A DNA stretch of 64,000 nucleotides, from positions 21,558,412 to 21,622,411 of the forward strand of contig NC_045139.1 in NCBI RefSeq assembly GCF_008831285.2. The letters run 5' to 3'. Positions 2,815 to 35,717 of this stretch are shown here, one piece after another. The stretch comes from Nymphaea colorata. Taxonomy: Eukaryota > Streptophyta > Magnoliopsida > Nymphaeales > Nymphaeaceae. The position numbers and the translations under genes were made by a program. Below the pieces are notes generated by a model that did not search any database, was not told the origin of the DNA, and saw only the letters and a program-made list of their open reading frames with translations. How positions within the stretch are numbered: the first letter of the stretch is position 1; every line of letters begins with the position of its first letter.

Positions 2815-3462
2815 GAGCAATGGTGACCGAGCCCCCTCCCTTCTCGGCTACCCATTTGGTCTTTCGAGAAATCATCATCATTATCATCATTCATGGCCTT
2901 TGAAAATGTCTTAGCGACGACATTGCCAACATCCATTTCATCTAAAGGGGGTCCTTCCTCAAGTACCAGTGTAACCTCCACCATGATAAGGTCAATGTTT
3001 TCTTGTATGCACACACCTGCCTTCACATTTCTGTCACTCTCTTTTGGTGGGCTGTTCACTTTTTGGTGTTTCGTTTCTTCGCCTTTTCAGACATGTGGGT
3101 ATTGTTAGACTCATGCGGCAGGTTTGAATCCGTTGTTGCGGAACACAGAAGGCCTTTAGGGGTGCTTGGGATTGGCTCTAGAGGCACTAAGGCTACTTGC
3201 AATGCCTGCACATCTTTACCACCTTGCTGCGTGGATAAAGCAACTGGAATAGCTCTATCTTTTGCGTTGTTTGCATCCTCTAAATTAATTGAACAATTCC
3301 CCTTCCCTTCTGTGCAGTATGTATCCCTCCCACCAAGGATTTGGTAGAGCTTTCCCCATCTGCTTTTGTCTCTACTAGAAGCGTAAGCGCTTGAAGTTTG
3401 CTTTGTTTCAAGGGATGCTCTTTACCTTGCTGTATGGAGTTTGTCTTCTAGGGGTTTTGACC

Positions 3463-3940
3463 TATGTTACCGGGTGCGGCAGAATTGGATCCGCACCCGC
3501 GACCTAGATTCGCACCCAAACCGCACCTACATGAGCGTGTACGTGGTGCGTTTGGATCTGGTTTCGGATCGAAACCAGATCCAAACCAAGTTCATCTAAA
3601 GGCGTGTATGTGGTATTGGATCTGATTCCGGGTCGAAACCAGATACAGTTTAAAAAGTTAAACTTTTCTCACCCGTCAAAGTCTGCCACCGTCGAGTCAC
3701 ATAAATGTTAAGCAAAACATTTATTATATGTTACTTTATTGTTTAAGCTTTTATAGATACAGGACTAAAAAACGAACTCTTCCACCCAAGTGTCAAAATT
3801 TTGAAGTTTTTGAGTCAAAATTTTGAAGTTTTTATGAAATTAATAATAATAATAATAAATAGTCTTCCTGCACCGCCGCACCAATAAATTTTGACGCCGG
3901 CACCCGCACCGGCACCCGCACCCCGCACTCTGGTAACATA
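3463..3940. mobile_element. Non-autonomous TIR element (MULE-like), 478 bp, inserted in the LINE
   Basis: The element begins TATGTTACC and ends GGTAACATA, a perfect 9-bp terminal inverted repeat. It is bordered by a perfect 10-bp direct repeat, GGTTTTGACC, at 3453-3462 and 3941-3950. Removing it rejoins the minus-strand LINE ORF1 downstream of the zinc knuckle. Its ends are packed with GCACCC/GGTGCG-type subterminal repeats, and a perfect hairpin lies at 3550-3586. No transposase is encoded. Target length and subterminal repeats fit a Mutator-like origin, but the TIR is short, so class is an inference. A relative lies at 32786-33977. Confidence 0.85.
3550..3586. repeat. Perfect 17-bp-arm hairpin inside the TIR element
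   Basis: GTTTGGATCTGGTTTCG is followed by a 3-nt loop (GAT) and its exact reverse complement. A degraded partial copy of the same palindrome follows at about 3610-3650. Sixteen of the 17 arm bases recur in the element at 32786-33977, which suggests a conserved core. Confidence 0.9.
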
Positions 3941-4934
3941 GGTTTTGACCATTTGCCACCCATTGGGGGTGACCTTCTCCCCTTCCTTGACTGCCTCTCC
4001 TACAGTGCAGGAACCATCAAAATGAGTTGTGGACCCACATTTTTTGCAGTACTTGAACTTAGTTTCATATTCTATGGATTAAACGAAGATCTTTCCTCCT
4101 TAAATCTCCATCTCAATCTCTGATATGGGGCTGAACCCCAACGGTATTTCAATCTTTATGCGAGAAAAGCCAAATTGATGAAGATGCCTGGTATATTCAC
4201 CTGCTTCCACGAATGAGCCACCTATTAAATCTGCAATGTCAGTGAAGATGCGAGGGTCCCACCACTCTACAGGTAAATCAGGTAGTCTAATCCATATTCG
4301 GACTCGGTTGGAACTCTCGATCCTCATGAGAATACCAATGTGCCATTGATTTGCAATAAGAAGTCTACCTTCTACATACTATCTGCCGAGAGACAATATG
4401 AGATCAGCTTCAGAGGAGGTACGAAGGAGAAACATACATTTCTCCACCGATGTAAACCTTAAATCAGTAACACCCGACCATAAGCTTTTGAGGCTAGTGA
4501 AAATGAAGTTGTAGTCAAGATGACCTTTCCCAGCACCTCCCGCAAGAGTAGCAATGGCACTGAACTGAAATGACTGACACAAGACTTCGTATGATTGTTG
4601 TGAAATAAGCAGTTGCTTCTTCTCTGACCTTTTTCTCTAATGGAGGCAGATTCATCTCTGCCTCAACCCTCCCCCCATCAACTATGGATGCCTAAGACTT
4701 ACCATTTAAGGGATTGGTCACTGACGACAATACCTCTCCCCTGTTAGTGGACTCTGTAGCTCCACCCAAAACCATGGGTTCTCCACTCCAAATGGGTTCC
4801 ACCATGTACTGATGCCCTTGATAGGCCCATCGAGGCCAGCTGCTGCCTCTTCCACAATCATGAGAGGTCCTATGCCCTAGGAGAGAGAAAGCTGCTGATT
4901 CCGGACATTGAGAAAGATTGTTAAAAAATATCAA

Positions 4935-8121: not shown

Positions 8122-11100
8122 TTACAGGAAATATGATAGCTGCTGTTTCTTCCTTGAACCGCCCTCCCCATATAAATCATTCCACTGCTTTAAATCATTC
8201 ATAATAGACCCCTCAGCTGCAAAGCTTGCTGCCACCTGTGCATGCAATGACAGAAGTGATGCTTGGCGCAACGTGCCAAACAAAAGTTTTGTAGGAAGTA
8301 GGTTAAATTCTGTAACAAAGAGGCAACTTTCCAAGTGACACAAATAAACTTACCTGATTTTTAGCAAGCCTCATGTCTTCCATTGTTAATGGGCGGAGAG
8401 TTGCTGGTTCTTCCTTGTTCTCTTCACATGTATCAGCTTCTTCCTCTGCCTTGATTCCTTCTGCCTTTTTCTTTCGCTCCTGTAGGTTGCAGCTCAATCA
8501 TGTCTTTGTGCTGAAGAAAAAAAGAATATGGTCTTGCAGAAAGAACATCTTGAACTAGCAGTTTACCTTCTCTATTTCCTGCTGTATTAACTCCCTTACA
8601 GGCCTATATGCCGCAGTTGTGCATAAATTCTGTGGCAACGGACAGAAACCATAATGAATCTTTTGAACAAGGACAAAGATAGCCACGAAACAGAGTGCAG
8701 GCACCGTAACCCACCTTCAGATCACTGCCGCTGTATCCATCGGTCATGCCAGCAAGCTCCGTAAAGTCAAGTTCATCTGCTTTCTCTTTGGATAAAAGAG
8801 TCCTCAGGATCTTTTCCCTGTTTTCTGCAGATGGTAAACTCACCATAATTCTGTACACCATGTCCAAAAATTATGGTAAGCATGTGGAAACGCATAAACT
8901 GGTACACATTTAAACAGTCCAGTAGTAAACAATCAGTAATACACCTGCGTTCAAAACGTCGAATGATTGCCTCATCGAGGTCAAAAGGCCGGTTGGTTGC
9001 AGCAAGAACAAGGATCCGTTCACCTGATTTTGACAAAAGTCCATCCCAGTGGGTCATGAACTCATTCTTGATTTTGCGCATGGCTTCATGCTCACCAACC
9101 CTGGACCTCTGCCCAAGCATGCTGTCAACCTCATCCACAAATATAATGGTGGGCGAAACCTTTGCAGCGAGAGTAAACAGAGCTCTGACATTTTTCTCAT
9201 CTTCACCAAACCACTTTGAAGTGATAGTGGACATTGAAACGTTGATGAAGCTGGCTCCGGCTTCTTTTGCTATTGCCTTGGCAAGCATGGTTTTTCCAGT
9301 CCCAGGTGGTCCAAACAATAATATACCCCTGCAAGGCTTTAACAACCCTCCTTTGAAAAGATCTGGCCTTCGAAGTGGAAGCATGACTAGCTCCTGAATT
9401 GACTCCTTTATCTCTTCAATGCCACCTATATCTGCAAATGTCACTCCAATTTCACTTGCAGGGATAACTTCTGGTCTGATGCGCTTCTCAAACTCATTAT
9501 CAGGTGGAACTTCCTGATCATGGATGCAACAAATACAGTGTTAGGGACAGCAAGGAGCCAATTGTTTGAGATGAGAAGACGAGCAAGGACATCCAAAATA
9601 GTTTCAAGTACAACTATGGATACAAAACTTATGTCAGACTAAATGAAGGAATGGACAAACAAATGAAAAACATAGAGCAGCATGTGTGGGACAGTACCTT
9701 AGGTGGAGCAGCTAAATTGCCCCCATCATTCTTTGCAGCTGCAGCTGACTTCTCTATGTCGTTCTTGTTCTCAGGTGCCGATGCTTCACTTTTTGTTTCA
9801 GGCTTCACACAATCTCCTAGGTCATCCACCGCATTCGCCTGAAAGAAACAGGATTCAGGAACTAATCTCGAGGAAGAAACTAGTGGACATTAACCTATAA
9901 ATACAATCAACCTTAGGTGCATCAGTATTTGCTTCCAATTTCAGAGTGTCCCTGCCACCATGCTTGCTTTCTTGAAAAATGCTCAGTCCATGTGCCAAAC
10001 TGTTATACCACAAAAAAAACATGAAAAACGAAAATGACAAATGAAGGGCTCAAAAGATGTAGATGGTTCAGCCTATTTTACCTTTTGGATGAGATAACAA
10101 GCTTCCCATTTTTGTATTCAGGATCCTTGTTATTCATTAGATGATAAGAAACTGCAGATACTACTATTTCTTCTATGTACTTGCTTAGAATCATTGTGTC
10201 TGCAAGGCAGATAGAAGCGAGATCGTCACAATCAAGATCATTTGCAGCTAGAACCTCTGTAATGTGATTCCTGTTATCTTGAAACTGGATCATCCTCATG
10301 TCTTCTTCCAATTGTGTCTTCCAGCTAACTAAATGGTTCTCATCTTCAGGTGGTTTAATCTCAATGTTGTAAGGAAACAACAGAGATAACTTCTCATCCA
10401 CTTCTCCATAATCATTACCAGGTTCCAATGTTCGTGAGCCAAGAATAAGAACAGGTCCTGAGAGCTTCTTCAACATTCTCTGGAATAAGGAATAGACCCT
10501 CTGGGACCTAAACAGAAGATTCTCAATATCTCTAATGTAAAGAACAATAGGTCTTGTTTTTGAAACCGTAACTAAAACCTGTCCAGAAAAATCAAAAACA
10601 AATCAGTCATCTCATAAAAAAAAAATACGCAAAGGCAAACTTTACACTTAACAATGACAAGAAGAACCTGCTCTCACTCTCAGAACAGCAAAATGAAATA
10701 TTAACAAACCTGGGAACAGAAAAAAGTAGAAAAAATACTGGATGCAGTTATTTATCTAAAAATCAAAAGCAGCACATTTTAGAACTTTACCTTGTAAAGG
10801 GACTGAACAAAAACTTTCTCATCAAACGCCCAACTGGTAGCACGCCTGAGAGGGACTATAATAACGACAGGCAAAAGTTAAAAACAAATGCAAGATCAAC
10901 CCAGAATATATGAAATTTATTTGAAAACCAGCCTAAGAATCTCATGCATAATAACCTGTATTTACTGGAGTACCCTGGCTTGCAAGGCTACTGATATCTG
11001 CAGCAGCTGAGGCATTTCTTCGAAGCTTTACACCAGTTTGCATGCCTTCAGAACCTCTACGGACAAAGTGATATTCATATGACATTTAAGGAAAGAAACT

Positions 11101-19060: not shown

Positions 19061-21889
19061 TTAGAATATGTCAAGCAAGTGGATCTTATATTTGGCCTGC
19101 TTGAAAAAGTTGATTAAGGATAACATGATATATGTAATAGGAAATTACAATTTGCTTTAGAAAGTTGAATATTTTGATGCATTGAACCATAACATAACTA
19201 GATTAGAGCCAAATAGTATGCAAATCAAAAGGACTCTGAAGCCTATGATGCATGGAAATGAAAAAATGGCAAGAGTCACGATGTTGTGCTCGATACAAAA
19301 TGACAACATGTGTCTGTTTGAACAACACACTACTACCCAACAATTGCGGCTAGCCCTCAAGGGCAAGTTTAAAGGAGCATCAACCACTAAGTTGAGAAAG
19401 TTTACTATCAAATTCAACTCATATTGTAAACAAAACCAACATACTATGAGTCAACATCCCAGGGAGATGGCAAATATGATAAGAGAGCTGAAGTCTACAG
19501 AATATACCCTTACTGATAAACAAGAAATCCACGCGGTGATAAAATCATTGCCGAATAATATAGAGTATGAAAATTAGTATAATACATAATGAGAACATCA
19601 AAACTTTTGATGACATATCTCAACACCTTAATATAGAGTATGAATGCTTAGAAGCTGCCAAGTGAGTGGTAAGGCCTTCATTGCTGAAAGTGTCAAGAAT
19701 GCTCTCAGTCATAAGAGGAAAATGGGTGATGGTTCTAAGTAGTTCAAGAATAAACAAAGGAAAGATCAAGGAAATAAAAACAAGAATGTAACAACAATAC
19801 TATGTGAAGCATGGTGGAAAGAAGGACAAGAATAAGTTAAAGTGCTTTGACTTTGGGAAGCTTGGTCATTTTGTTTTGAGTATAGTGAACCAAATAATGT
19901 GCACACCTCTAGACTTTATATCATTATTCTTTTGTTTCAAGTTGTGCTCTAATTATGGAATCTCATTGTTTGTGGATTGTAAACTCATGAGTGACATATC
20001 ATATAATGAATAATTATAGTGCATTTATCAAATACCAGAAGTTCCTAGTCAGGAAAAGTAGTTATTCATAGGGAATAATAGTCATGTAGAAGATGTGTGC
20101 AAATTTATTTTCGCGAGTGGATGAAAACTACTATTGCTTGATGTGTTGTATATCCCATATTTCTTTATGAAATCTAGTTTCTACTTTAACTTTCTTGATG
20201 TTCAGCTATGGACTTACTATTAAAGACAATTTTGTTATGATATTGTTTAACTTTTCAACTTTATGTTCTAGTGTGTTAATAAGTGGTTTTTAACTATTGT
20301 TTGTAATATTTATTATGCGAGTCATTAGTGCTTTAATGTATATATAATTGTGGATGTCCACGTGGCATACTTGCCCGGGGCACATTGGTCAAAAAAGATT
20401 AAATAAATTTACTTGTGAAAGGTTATTAGGATCACTTACAAATACTGACATGCATGTCTGTGAGTACAATTTATCTAGCAAAGCAATTCAAAGACTATTT
20501 GGCAAAGTTGTCAAGGCTTTTGTTCTATCACAATAATGCATTGACATATTTGAACCCATGAGTGTAACATCGAAATATGGGGCATCATACTTCATTATTT
20601 TTTAATGCATACAATCAATTCGATTATGCATATACCATAAGTATGAGGTGTTAAATTGTTTCAAACACCTCATGAATGTGATTGAGAACCAACTTGATAA
20701 AAAAATCAAAGTCTTTGAATATATCATGATAGAAAATACTACTTATTCAAACAATTCAAGGAAATGTAGAATAAAAATGCATAGATAAAAAATTGACCAC
20801 ACATCATACACATCAACTGAATAGTGTTGTTAAGAGAATGAATCAAACATTGATAGATATGGTCAGGTCTATAATGGTGCAAGTGCAGTTACCAATTTCC
20901 TTTTGGGGTGATTGCTTGCTGACTGTAACATGCATTATTAACAATATATTCATAAAATCAGTTTCGTCAACCTTGTATGAATTATGAACAGTAGCAATTT
21001 GAGGACGTGAGCATATGCACATATGTTCACGATCATTCTTACTAATATGGTAAACTAGGACAAAGGAAAAAAAAGTATTTTTATATGATACTGTGAACAT
21101 TTCAAGGATTATGTATTCTTAGAAGAAATTATGGACGAAAATAAGACTGAAATAGATTATTGTGATGCTACATTTTTCGAAGCTGATTTCTCCAAAAAAA
21201 AGGGACATCAAGAGAGAGAAAGATGTTGAACTATATGAGTGCAAGAACATGCAAAGGAAAAAGTTGAAGATATTGAAGGAGAAGATGCATTGTCTTAGCT
21301 GGGTATAGTGGGATTGAACAACATGTGAGTCAGAATCTAAATATGGTACCTCGTTTAGGTATGAGGAAAAGGCTAGCATGTTGCAAATTTGAAATAGAAG
21401 GTTATGTAATGATGGTAGTACCTGACGATATTAACGTTCTAAAATTTGTTAATGATGTTATCTCTTGTTCAAAAAAGGAAAAATGAAAGAAAACAATGAA
21501 AGAAAAGATGAGATGCATAAGCATGAACAATGTTTGGGAACATCTTGATCTTTGTCAAGGAAAGGAGGCCATTGAGAATAAATGGGTTCTAACGTCAAAA
21601 GAAAAGAAAAGGATCCACTGAGAGATTTCAAGTCCAACTTATTGCAAAAGAATATACACAAAAGGAAGACATTGATTATGATGAGGTACACTCTTTAGTT
21701 ATTAGAACATCATATGTTCATTTTATTCTTGCTTATATTTCATATATGAACCTGCATTGGATGGTTATCAAGACAACATTCTTGATCAAAGAAGTGGATG
21801 ATGAAATTCACATCGAACACTTGAAGAATGTGTAGTAAAAGCTTTGAGCATAAAGTTTGCAGGCTGAAAAGGCCTATTTATAGACTTAA

Positions 21890-29128: not shown

Positions 29129-29299
29129 TGTTGAAATCAAAAAGTTTATTTTAAGGGTAGTAGTTTTTTTATTATTTAAAAGTTGGAGTCTTCTTTTGTC
29201 TTTTTACAACTTTATGAGTCTCCCTTATGTAACAGCTCTAGACGTGCCCTAATCTATCTTAAAGAAGAGACTAGGTCACGATAATTGATTCAAGTCTTT

Positions 29300-29338
<39 letters not shown>

Positions 29339-31297: not shown

Positions 31298-32785
31298 AAT
31301 GTCACCCATATTGGGTTATGGAGATGTGAAGTTTTCTCAGTCCATGACTATTCCACATGTTTTATATGCTCATGAATTTCCATCCCATCTGCTCTCCGTC
31401 AAATAGTTGACTATTGATTTACACTGCGCATTATTTTTTACCATGGTTCATGCTCATTTCAAGACTTACAAACTGGGAAGATGATTGGTGGCGGCTATAA
31501 GAAGGGGGCGTCTACATCCTGTCGGCTCCTATGGGTCTTGCTGCTTCTTCCTCTACATCAGAGTCTACATTCTTCCAATGGCATCTCAGGCTTGGTCATC
31601 CTTCAACGTCCAAGCTCCGTTCTATCCTACCTAATCTTTCAATCCTAGAGTCTTTTCAGTGTGAGGCTTGTCAACTTGGCATGCACACTCGTAGTAGTTT
31701 TCCTTCGAGTCTTAGTCCTTCAAGTCAAGGGTTATTTGATTTTCTCCATGTTGATGTGTGGGGGCCTAGCAGGGTTGCTAGCCGAGCTAGGTTTAGGTAT
31801 TTTCTGGTCGTTGTTGATGATTACTCTCGAGTTAGTTGGGTATTCATTTTGAAAGAACGGTCTGAAACAATTTGTATTCTCAAAAACTTGATTATTGAAA
31901 TAAAAACTCAGTTTGGTTCTGTGGTTAAGTGTATTCGCACTGATAATGCTCTCGAGTTCAAATCATCTATCTTAATGACCTTTTATGCTGAAAATGGTAT
32001 CTCTCCTCAATTTACATGCCCTCATATCTCACAACAGAATGAAGTCGCCGAGCGAAAACATAGGCAACTTCTAACAGTTGCTCGTACCCTAATGCTTCAT
32101 AATCATGTACTTGCAAACTTGTGGGGTGATGCCATACTCATGGCTTGTTACCTAACAAATCATTTACCTTCGTCCTCCATGGAGAACAAAGTACCTATTA
32201 AACTTGTTTATCCCAATCAAAACTTATTTCTTGTTGCACCTAAAGTTTTTGGGTGTACCTGTTTTGTTCATATCTTGGGCCTAAACATGATAAACTTTCT
32301 GCTCAAGCCATTAAATGTGTGTCGTTGGTTATCCTAAAAACCAAAATGGGTACAAGTGCTTTGACCCTGTAACTCAAAAAAAGTATATTAGTGCAGATGT
32401 CACTTTTTTGGAGTCTCAGTCCTACTTTAGTCCTACTTCAGTGTCGTCTGAGATGCCATGTCCTATTCCTCTACCTATTCCTCCGGTCCCGTTGCAATCT
32501 TTTCCTTCACCATTTCCTTCTCCTACTTCAACTACGAATAGGTTTCAAGACCCATTGGTCTACACTCGACGACAGGATCCCTCTCATGGTCGACCATCAG
32601 ACTCTTCTCAAGATGTGAGCCCCACTGAAGTAAGTATACCTGATGGTGATCCTTCACAGGGCTTTCCTATAGCCCTGCACAATGGCAAGAGACAGTGTAC
32701 CATGCATCCTATCTCTCACTTTGTTTCCATTGGCCATCTTGATGACAACTTACAGCAATTTCTTAAGGCTATGTCAGTCCATACC
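31298..32785 (+). pseudogene. Copia protease end and integrase, broken, cut by an insertion
   Basis: After a frame change, protease remnants continue (SQSMTIPHVLYA). The open part 31531-32337 has the GAG-pre-integrase word FQWHLRLGHPSTSKLR, then an integrase core with the catalytic acids in HVDVWGP, RTDNALEF and SQQNEVAERKHRQL. A further frame (32315-32785) carries the KCFDPVTQKKYISADVTF segment and a Pro/Ser-rich linker. The copia sequence stops at FLKAMSVHT, where the TIR element enters, and resumes at 33978. Confidence 0.9.
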
Positions 32786-32872
32786 TATGTCACCGTGGTA
32801 CGCCAGATCCACCCATATACTCGTACCGGTACGCCGGTACGGCAGTATCGGTACGTCGGTATGTGGTGGTAT

Positions 32873-32909
32873 GTTTGGATCTGGTTTCGGGTTGAAACCA
32901 GATCCAAAC
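32873..32909. repeat. Hairpin with 16-bp perfect arms and 5-nt loop
   Basis: GTTTGGATCTGGTTTC, loop GGGTT, then GAAACCAGATCCAAAC. The arms are identical to 16 of the 17 arm bases at 3550-3586. Confidence 0.95.
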
Positions 32910-33002
32910 TATATCAAAAGAAAAAAAAACGAAAACCTAAAACCCCAAGTCGCTCATCTTCTCCCTCTTCGCCTTTGAGTTTCTTCATTTGGTGACGAAC
33001 AA

Positions 33003-33127
33003 CCGGTGGATGGCGACAGACGACCAGTGGATGGTGACAGGCGACCCGTGGACGGCGACGGGCGACCGGTGGATGGCGACAGAGGCGACGAGGCGACGAA
33101 CGGATCGGTGGACGGCGACGGAGGCGA
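33003..33127. repeat. 21-bp minisatellite, 4 full copies plus a diverged fifth
   Basis: Copies begin at 33003, 33024, 33045 and 33066 with unit CCGGTGGATGGCGACAGACGA. A diverged copy starts near 33105. The period is a multiple of three and can be read as a Val-Asp-Gly-Asp-Arg-Arg-Pro repeat, but no supported protein surrounds it. Confidence 0.9.
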
Positions 33128-33247
33128 TGAATCCCTAAGAGTATTTGGTCAATCGGTTGAGATTCTTGTCTGTTTCCATTTGTTTGATGATGATGATTTC
33201 TGTTGTTTTGGGTGTACTGGAAGCCATGAAGCATGGGTTGGTCTGAC

Positions 33248-33341
33248 TAGAGAGAAGCTGAGTTGTTTCATTAAAAACTGCTGCTTTGTTTTATTAGAGA
33301 GAAGCTGAGTTGTTTTATTAAAAATTGCTGCTTTGTTTTAT
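33248..33341. repeat. 47-bp tandem duplication
   Basis: TAGAGAGAAGCTGAGTTGTT...GCTTTGTTTTAT is repeated twice head to tail with very few differences. Confidence 0.95.
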
Positions 33342-33977
33342 TAATGTTTGGTTTTGGGGTTCTTAACTGTTTTGTCTGTTTTTCTTGTGCCCTCTTTTGT
33401 TAGAAACAAGTCGAACTAGTGATGTTGTTGAGGAACTTGGGTTCGAGAGAGTTTTCTTATGCCCTTCATACTCCTCCGTGAGTGCTTCTCCCAAGTCCCA
33501 ACTCCTTATTGGAGTCTCTTGCTCTTTGCTCTAACAAGGATGGATATAATACGGCTGGAAAGTGTGTAGTTTAATTTTTGTTAAGTAGTTGTCTTGTTCA
33601 TTTATAATATGAACATTGGGATTTTGTAAATAGAAAACGTTATACAAGTTGCAAATATGATATATCTGAATTACCTTGAGCGAGTCAGTCTTCTAAAACT
33701 AAAACACTATTGTCTTAATGTGATGTGCGATTTTTACCTTGAATTGGTTTTTCTTTCTTAAAATAGATATCCAATGCACTTTCTGGATGATTGTTGTTGT
33801 TGTTATATCTCAGGTTATTATGCTTTCTTTTTCTTTACGAGATTGTATGTTGAGAAATATATATTTTTTTACAATTTTTTAAATTAAAAAAATAATATTA
33901 TCACCATACCGCGTACCAAGATTTGAAAAAACGCCGTACTCGTGCCCGTTTTCCCGTATCCATACCTCGGTGACATA

Positions 33978-35502
33978 CTCCATACTATACCAACTAGTCA
34001 TCAATAGGCATTACTAGACTGTAAATGGCTGAAAGATATGCAAGATGAGATGGATGCTTTCATATAGTGTGATACCTGAGAATTGGTTGATCCACCTGAA
34101 AATTGTGACATTGTTGGCTCCAAATGGGTATTTACGGTCAAGTATCATTCAGATGGGTCAGTAGAGCAATATAAGGCTCGATTTGTGGCTAAGGGTTACA
34201 CTCAGACATACGGCATTGACTTTTTTGAGACATTCTCTCCTGTGGCCAGGTTGGGCACTATTCGCCTCATTATTTCTGTTGCGGTATACTCTTACTGGCC
34301 TATGCATCAGCTTGATGTGAAGAATGTCTTTCTTTATGGTGATCTTGAGGAGACTGTATATATGCAGCAACCCCCAGGGTTCAAGCGACAGGGGGAGTGT
34401 AGTAAAGTGTGTCGTCTGAAGAAGGCTATTTATTGACTCAAACAAAGTCTCAGGGCGTGGTTCCACAAATTAGTGGTTTCACAATGTGGGTTTGAAGGAT
34501 CTCCTTTGGATCATTCTCTATTCATCAAGAAGACCTCCAAAGGTATAGTTGTTATGGTAGTATATGTTGATGATATTATCTTGACAGGTGATTGTGATAA
34601 AGAAATATCAGCTACAAAGGCTTTCCTTCAAAAGCATTTTGTCATGAAAGATCTTGGTCCCTTGTGATATTTTCTTGGGATTGAGGTTGCGCAGAATAAA
34701 TAAGGTGTAGTATTGTCTCAGAGGAAGTATGTCCTTGACCTACTTCAAGATACAGGGATGTTAGGGACTAAGCCAGCTAATCTCTCTATGAATCCATGTC
34801 TTCATCTTCATGATAATCAATCGGATCTAGTAGATTCATGATCTTATAGGTCTCTCATTGGCAACCTTCTTTATGTTACTGTAACAAGACCATACATTAG
34901 TTTTGTTGTTGCGAAATTAAGTCAGTTTATGAAAAAACCTAGAAGAGTCCACTGGGATGCTTCGTTGATGGTGTTGAAATACCTAAAGTCATCCCCGGGT
35001 AGAGGCCTCTTCTTTAAGAAATGTGAATCTCTAGAAGTTATAGCTTACAGTGATGCTAATTATGCAGGGTCTGTTGATGATAGAAAATCCACCACTGGCT
35101 TCTGTATCTTTGTTGGGGCAATCTCATATCATGGGAAGTAAGAAACAAAATGTAGTCTCTAGATCTAGTGCGGAATCTGAAGATAGAGCAATGGCTCAAA
35201 CAGCTATTGAGGTGACGTGGGTTAAATCTGTGCTAACAAATATGAATATTCATGTTCCTCTTCCTACGAAAATGTACTGTGATAACAAGGTTGCTACTTA
35301 TATTACAAATAACCCAGTATTTCATGAAAGAACTAAGCACATAAAGGTGGATTGTCATTATGTTCGTGATCTTATGTATCTACAGTTCATGTAGCTTCTG
35401 AAGATCATGCAACATATATGTTTATGAAGGCTCTTCCAATTGGTGATTTCTTTAGATGTTGTGATAAGCTGAGCATGGTTGATATCTATGCTCCAGCTTG
35501 AG
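33978..35502 (+). pseudogene. Copia reverse transcriptase and RNase H, broken
   Basis: It resumes copia sequence with CKWLKDMQDEMDAFI. The reverse transcriptase has GSKWVFTVKYHSDGSVEQYK and ARFVAKGYTQTYGIDFFETF (34110-34230), and the catalytic YVDD at 34564-34575. RNase H follows with SDANYAGSVDDRKSTTGF and a YCDNKVATYI segment, ending MVDIYAPA before the stop at 35502. In-frame stops occur near 34070, 34433, 34665, 34700 and 34840, and a frameshift lies near 35140, so the gene is dead. Confidence 0.92.
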
Positions 35503-35508: not shown

Positions 35509-35717
35509 TGTTGAAATAAAAAAGTTTATTTTAAGTGCAGTAGTTTTTTATTATTTAAAAATTGGAGTCTTCTTTTGTCGTTTTACAAATTTATGAGTCT
35601 CCCTTATGTAACAGCTCTAGATGTGCCCTAATCTCTCATTAAGAAAAGACTAGGTCACGATAATTGATTCAAATATTTTTCGTCTCTCTCTCTCTCGTTC
35701 TTTTTCATCGTGTAACA
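35509..35717 (+). repeat. 3' LTR of the copia element (209 bp)
   Basis: It starts TGTTGAAATA and ends CGTGTAACA. It is clearly homologous to the LTR at 29129-29356, with point differences and a shorter CT tract. The GTTTT target copy follows. Confidence 0.95.

Follow-up and report, generated by a model that had tools for sequence, protein, structure and literature searches.

Two non-autonomous hAT elements in Nymphaea colorata, one of them probably a hAT-A core with the tips of a second hAT family

The window, the whole 64,000-nucleotide stretch of Nymphaea colorata DNA that was analysed, corresponds to positions 21558412-21622411 of contig 2 in a genome of 408 Mb and 783 contigs. It contains the exons of an AAA ATPase gene at 8773-9444 and 10078-10476 on the minus strand (Pfam AAA, 5.5e-40; DUF7751, 3.2e-29) and a fragment of a copia-type gag at 19182-19577 on the plus strand (Retrotran_gag_2, 8.5e-09). 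It also contains two elements, here termed e1 and e2, both of which are non-autonomous hAT transposons. Their features are as follows; loci elsewhere in the genome are given L numbers.

3454..3461, no strand: left target duplication of e1, GTTTTGAC (8/8 match)
3462..3941, plus strand: e1, a mosaic MITE of 480 bp (CTATGTTACC...GGTAACATAG), from its ends, 8-bp duplication and mosaic alignment
3462..3536 (element 1-75), plus strand: left tip of e1, alignable to hAT-G (BLAST to L076 and L074), with GGTGC-type repeats
3543..3592, plus strand: hAT-A block of e1 with the palindrome at 3550-3586 (94% to L031, 95.7% to L024)
3607..3650, plus strand: decayed second palindrome unit of e1 (70% to the first copy)
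3654..3772, plus strand: MITE interior of e1, common to the GTACC-tipped L062, L040, L037, L031 and L052 (73% to L062, 1.4e-15)
3829..3941, plus strand: right tip of e1 with six GGTGC-type repeats, of ambiguous origin by alignment (hAT-G or hAT-A)
3942..3949, no strand: right target duplication of e1, GTTTTGAC (8/8 match)
31531..34200, plus strand: copia pol gene split by e2, from Pfam and the frame of the empty site (the right limit is that of the stretch read)
32778..32784, no strand: left flank of e2, TCCATAC, a decayed 8-bp duplication (flank comparison)
32785..33978, plus strand: e2, an internally deleted hAT-A element of 1194 bp (matches to L025, L028 and L021 ends)
32795..32872, plus strand: left GTACC/GTATC-type subterminal repeats of e2 (repeat count)
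32873..32909, plus strand: palindrome of e2 (identical arms)
33979..33985, no strand: right flank of e2, TCCATAC (flank comparison)

The end pairs of both elements, TATGTTACC at 3463-3471 with GGTAACATA at 3932-3940 in e1 and TATGTCACC at 32786-32794 with GGTGACATA at 33969-33977 in e2, are present as the original prediction had them, and the true terminal repeats, CTATGTYACC/GGTRACATAG, are 1 base longer. TATG is preceded by C in 32 of 34 ends, which were found with a search pattern that left this base unspecified, and CATA is mostly followed by G at the opposite ends. Thus, with the C...G included in the register, the target duplication is 8 bp and not the 9-10 bp first proposed. It is perfect (8/8) in 10 of the 15 complete elements (e1, L014, L021, L023, L024, L025, L027, L031, L033, and L062), with the right end called partly by flank matching for most elements, including L027 and L023 and excluding e1 and e2. 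In L028 it is 8/8 if the right end is set one base further out; it is 7/8 in L022 and L055/L042, and 6/8 in L034. L062 and L055/L042 were found without any choice of the right end by flank matching. Element e2 has decayed, having C for G at its right end and flanks that share only the 7-mer TCCATAC.

The duplications are like those of hAT elements. The 8-bp target duplication of hATs is present, in e1 among others, and has decayed to 7 bp in e2. Among 11 duplications, T occupies position 2 in 10 and a purine occupies position 7 in all 11, which resembles the hAT target consensus nTnnnnAn. The hAT terminal repeat consensus starts with a pyrimidine followed by A and has G at position 5; CTATG has the pyrimidine and the G, but T at position 2. 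Features shared with the hAT superfamily (hobo/Ac/Tam3, the plant DUF659-type elements, and hAT MITEs) are the 8-bp duplications, the short terminal repeats, and the many subterminal repeats. The subterminal repeats differ in kind between the two elements, as had been noticed: within 90 bp of each end, e1 has 5 GGTGC-type repeats on the left, 6 on the right, and no GGTAC-type repeats, whereas e2 has 5 GGTAC-type repeats on the left, 1 on the right, and no GGTGC-type repeats. At 480 bp, non-coding and bounded by terminal repeats, e1 has the form of a hAT MITE, and it has at least 61 match rows in the genome (from the best 40 of 478 candidates).

Element e2 aligns nearly end to end with L025 and L028 (80% with gaps) and also matches L021, an element of 3.7 kb, at either end of the latter. 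It lies within copia sequence, with Pfam matches to gag_pre-integrs, rve, and SH3_retrovirus on its left; removal of e2 together with one TCCATAC yields a single copia reading frame with one stop left. Direct repeats at 29129-29327 and 35509-35706 (163 nt at 90% and 53 nt at 85%) bracket the copia genes that bear e2. These repeats are probably parts of the copia LTRs, suggesting that e2 landed in a copia copy that was already inserted.

In hAT-A, the family to which e2 belongs, the ends are CTATGTCACC, GTACC-type repeats lie near each of them, and the left end is followed at 28-125 bp by a palindrome. Neither e1 nor e2 encodes a hAT transposase. However, the larger relatives do retain hAT domains, including the C-terminal dimerisation domain: L021 matches DUF659 (3.5e-29) and Dimer_Tnp_hAT (8.4e-10), and L022 matches Dimer_Tnp_hAT (4.9e-12). 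Such a transposase, together with internally deleted copies and MITEs, is likewise found among plant hATs. When the C-terminal piece of L021 is used as a query, there are at least 151 genome matches (from the best 150 of 935 candidates). Of 300 transposase matches examined, 6 lie no more than 4.5 kb from a palindrome, and among these 6 are two with open frames, one of 498 aa and the other of 680 aa. Right ends were also fetched beside five related transposases, whose C-termini are 53-65% identical. Four of these (L069, L070, L071, and L072) have a TGTGACATAG-like right end with GTACC or GTATCC repeats, and no such right end was found at the fifth, L073. Thus, the GTACC type looks old in this group.

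The two palindromes have identical 16-nt arms at 3550 and 32873, with the complements at 3571 and 32894, exactly as first described. The equal spacing of 87 bp between end and hairpin is a coincidence rather than a matter of design, since spacing varies from 28 to 125 across the 30 ends in which a palindrome can be recognised. The palindrome itself is not a product of chance: genome-wide there are 96 occurrences of the 16-mer, at 68 places after grouping, and 0 of the reversed-pattern control. The pattern is found 0 and 0 times in viral and prokaryote contigs, and at gathering thresholds Rfam matches nothing in the window. From the 66 other palindrome places, 26 were fetched, which with e1 and e2 makes 28 loci. 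A CTATGTYACC end (with at most 1 mismatch) lies within 220 bp of the palindrome at 21 of the 28; over 200 draws of random places within those loci, the count averaged 0.825 and never exceeded 4. No such end was found near the palindrome at the seven remaining loci (L010, L013, L015, L016, L019, L030, and L032). The original prediction had allowed that the palindrome might prove to be rare or to lie outside the ends, and that the duplications might not be seen again. Instead, its copies are not rare and lie inside the ends, and the duplications recur at other loci, at 8 bp.

Ends were also sought without the palindrome, using the pattern TATGTYACCGN{0,1}GGTRCG, which gave 41 ends, against 1 in the forward and 0 in the reverse control; all 41 were read. 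With the arms masked, 34 of the 41 were classed against known left and right ends, giving 25 left ends, 8 right ends, and one that could not be assigned (L067). Allowing up to 3 mismatches, an arm is present in 21 of these 25 left ends and in none of the 8 right ends. The remaining 7 (e1, e2, L009, L014, L025, L027, and L031), handled outside the arm-masked script, are left ends with an exact arm. In total, an arm is present in 28 of the 32 left ends of the end-selected sample and absent from all 8 right ends, a count that is not fully independent, since L047, L049, and L053 form a set of close copies and L064/L065 resemble a single locus. Within hAT-A, the hairpin is a marker of the left end. 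L064 (C15:2172915-2173165) and L065 (C253:56750-57000) have near-identical left ends and the same 8-bp flank, cttttcaa, and are probably one locus assembled twice.

The armless left ends are L037, L040, L060, and L062. L062 has lost the palindrome, yet it has a perfect duplication. Consequently, the idea that the core is generally needed for mobility, as had been suggested, is unsupported. In L040 and L060 the loss of the palindrome is nearly exact, a pattern expected if inverted repeats are unstable, and in L066 the palindrome is shortened, its centre being lost. Among nine end-selected elements that bear it (L036, L049, and L053 were dropped), the palindrome is the best-conserved block, with a mean identity of 0.757 compared with 0.593 in the preceding 40 bp, 0.442 in the following 37 bp, and 0.429 for shuffled sequence.

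A long palindrome at the left end alone sets these elements apart from the hAT superfamily in general. The closest comparison is with Hermes of the housefly. According to excerpts of the Hermes study, BED domains bind a quasi-palindromic pair of repeats at the left end and none at the right, and activity needs unlike ends (PMC10368747). The features that hAT-A has in common with Hermes as described in those excerpts are subterminal repeats, a left-only quasi-palindromic pair, and unlike ends; however, the Hermes pair is about 17 bp long and is located at bp 11-27, while the palindrome here has 37 nt and lies 28-125 bp in (PMC10368747). By analogy, transposase N-terminal domains may bind the palindrome as a paired site, marking the hAT-A left end. 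This reading, in which the palindrome is the left-end transposase binding site of hAT-A, is put forward tentatively, with somewhat less than even confidence. The N-terminal pieces of L021 and L022 look zinc-finger-like, with a C-x2-C...H-like stretch in L021, but those of L021 and L033 have no match to Pfam zf-BED.

The palindrome could also be a promoter or operator of the transposase gene, or a site for a host factor, that has no role in mobility and that the MITEs retain by descent. This is a serious possibility, albeit a minority one. In the larger copies, a C+T-rich, leader-like stretch follows closely downstream of the palindrome, and the absence of the palindrome from some left ends, including that of L062 with its perfect duplication, fits such a role. 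Yet it is the best-conserved block even in MITEs that have no transposase gene, and the e1-type MITEs retain it, often twice or more. We consider it improbable that the palindrome works through its physical structure, forming a hairpin or cruciform that serves as a pause site in gap repair or replication. As single-stranded DNA, the e1 37-mer folds strongly (z = -9.13), and the losses and the shortened copy (L040, L060, and L066) fit palindrome instability. However, covariation between the arms is no higher than in shuffles, so there is no support for selection on pairing as such, and arm pairing is rejected as the selected property; what is conserved is the sequence and the left-end position, not pairing alone. 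Tandem palindrome units, two or more, are present in the e1-type MITEs L011, L023, and L056, like that at 3607-3650 in e1.

GGTGC-type ends were sought with TATGTYACCNGGGTGC, which gave 103 ends and 0 in the control. Among the 100 of these that were listed, 4 are within 120 bp of an exact 16-mer, and all four match e1. Because GGTGC ends near the 16-mer are so few, and all e1-like, the GGTGC ends constitute a separate, abundant set, hAT-G. Native examples are the left ends L074 and L076, the right end L077, and the 1293-bp element L055/L042; the native sequence of hAT-G is thus three left and two right ends, with left and right assigned by likeness. None of the three native left ends that were fetched (L074, L076, and L055) shows the palindrome. 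Consequently it is not a feature of every subfamily, which had been put forward as a check; the hAT-A left end has it, and these do not. A DUF659 gene near one hAT-G-type end was rejected as the hAT-G transposase, as repeats of another kind follow that end.

Along e1, BLAST assigns element positions 1-75 to hAT-G, 82-131 to hAT-A (94-96%), and 193-311 to the MITE interior (73%, 1.4e-15). In all, the left ~75-85 bp of e1 align to hAT-G. The left block scores 71 against hAT-G and 20 against the best of eight hAT-A left ends, with a shuffle maximum of 31 (n=100), and the left blocks of L027, L056, L011, L009, and L023 favour hAT-G over hAT-A in the same direction. The blocks of L027 are of similar kind: positions 1-88 are the hAT-G left tip (80.9%, 4.5e-21), 94-120 the flank of the hAT-A palindrome (96%), 160-234 the interior of GTACC-tipped MITEs (73-75%), and 281-359 the hAT-G right tip (77%, 2.7e-11). 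In a sliding comparison, six left ends (e1, L027, L023, L056, L047, and L053) change family along their length, and those of e2, L014, and L062 do not.

The right tip of e1 scores 63 against hAT-G and 62 against hAT-A, and has no clear class in the sliding comparison. Taken alone, it has some 30 matches in the genome. These right-tip-only matches, the 6 GGTGC-type and 0 GGTAC-type repeats, and the right tips of L027 and L023 make it likely that this tip is also derived from hAT-G. In e1 and L027 the two ends carry one kind of repeat, and so do those of L023, where the left repeats are few and mixed; such agreement is what a single protein that has to recognise the two ends would require. Perfect 8-bp duplications flank three mosaic copies at different places (e1, L027, and L023), showing that the mosaics transposed.

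Judged from these alignments, the e1 lineage consists of a hAT-A hairpin and MITE interior joined to a hAT-G left tip and, probably, a hAT-G right tip, and the swapped repeats appear to have arisen by replacement of tips rather than by drift. The fixed core and swapped end repeats of the original prediction are therefore borne out, the left tip aligning to hAT-G and the hairpin and interior to the e2-type family, although the term sibling subfamilies misses that e1 is a mosaic of two families. The alternative of concerted drift, in which base changes turned GTACC into GCACC in one lineage together with its transposase and no tips were exchanged, is distinctly unlikely. GTACC and GCACC are a single transition apart, both motifs are mixed in the related right end L072, and the left repeats of L023 are few and mixed, which indicates that repeats can also drift. 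However, the collinearity of the e1 left block with hAT-G extends beyond the repeats, its score against hAT-A is at shuffle level, and there is a sharp change to hAT-A at the palindrome flank, so drift is already disfavoured. Identification of e1 and e2 as MULEs, for which plant duplications are ~9 bp, is rejected as scarcely credible, as it draws on the initial 9-10-bp reading and is opposed by the 8-bp register in 10 of 15 complete elements and by the hAT transposase domains of the larger copies.

Together, these results make it probable that e1 and e2 are two non-autonomous hATs, that e1 is a hAT-A core with hAT-G tips, and that its transposase was switched by exchange of tips. The switch itself is inferred from the fact that hAT transposases read terminal and subterminal repeats. 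On the Hermes model, the hAT-A protein would move e2 and the GTACC MITEs, the hAT-G protein would move e1, and tip exchange would have transferred the MITE from the first transposase to the second. The earlier suggestion of different transposases is a fair inference, with no transposase of the second family found among the transposase matches compared with hAT-G ends. The exchange probably took place by template switching or recombination during repair after excision. The direction, a hAT-A MITE gaining tips, follows from the palindrome being native to hAT-A, and in e1 the palindrome would be a passenger or an auxiliary site. The fuller sequence of events, in which the MITE exchanged both tips with the second family, kept its core, and then spread, carrying the palindrome, in some copies multiplied, as a recognition site no longer needed, is in our judgement evenly balanced.

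Non-autonomous Ac/Ds and Mutator elements are moved through their ends, which are shared, and their interiors differ. Here the arrangement is reversed, with a shared core and different ends, and this MITE lineage departs from the hAT superfamily in general in that its left tip, and probably its right tip, match a family other than that of its core. MITEs depend on transposases encoded elsewhere, and how they acquire a new one is rarely traceable. If the reading given above is correct, tips would be exchangeable modules and a left-end palindrome would be a family-specific recognition site for transposase. The presence of one interior and hairpin under two sets of tips, with clean duplications, opens the proposed transposase switch to binding and excision assays, and the palindrome, being confined to the left end, offers another way into the question of how hAT transposases might distinguish the two ends. 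In the open-access literature, among the matches listed, there is nothing on these ends or on a tip-swapped MITE.

Among the related hATs is a group with 65% C-terminal identity (for example G000:C7:6464543, with right end L069), in which at least nine matches share one E-value. No exact 16-mer is present near their coordinates among the 68 palindrome places. Seven of those nine have a 670-aa open frame, and the group looks young.
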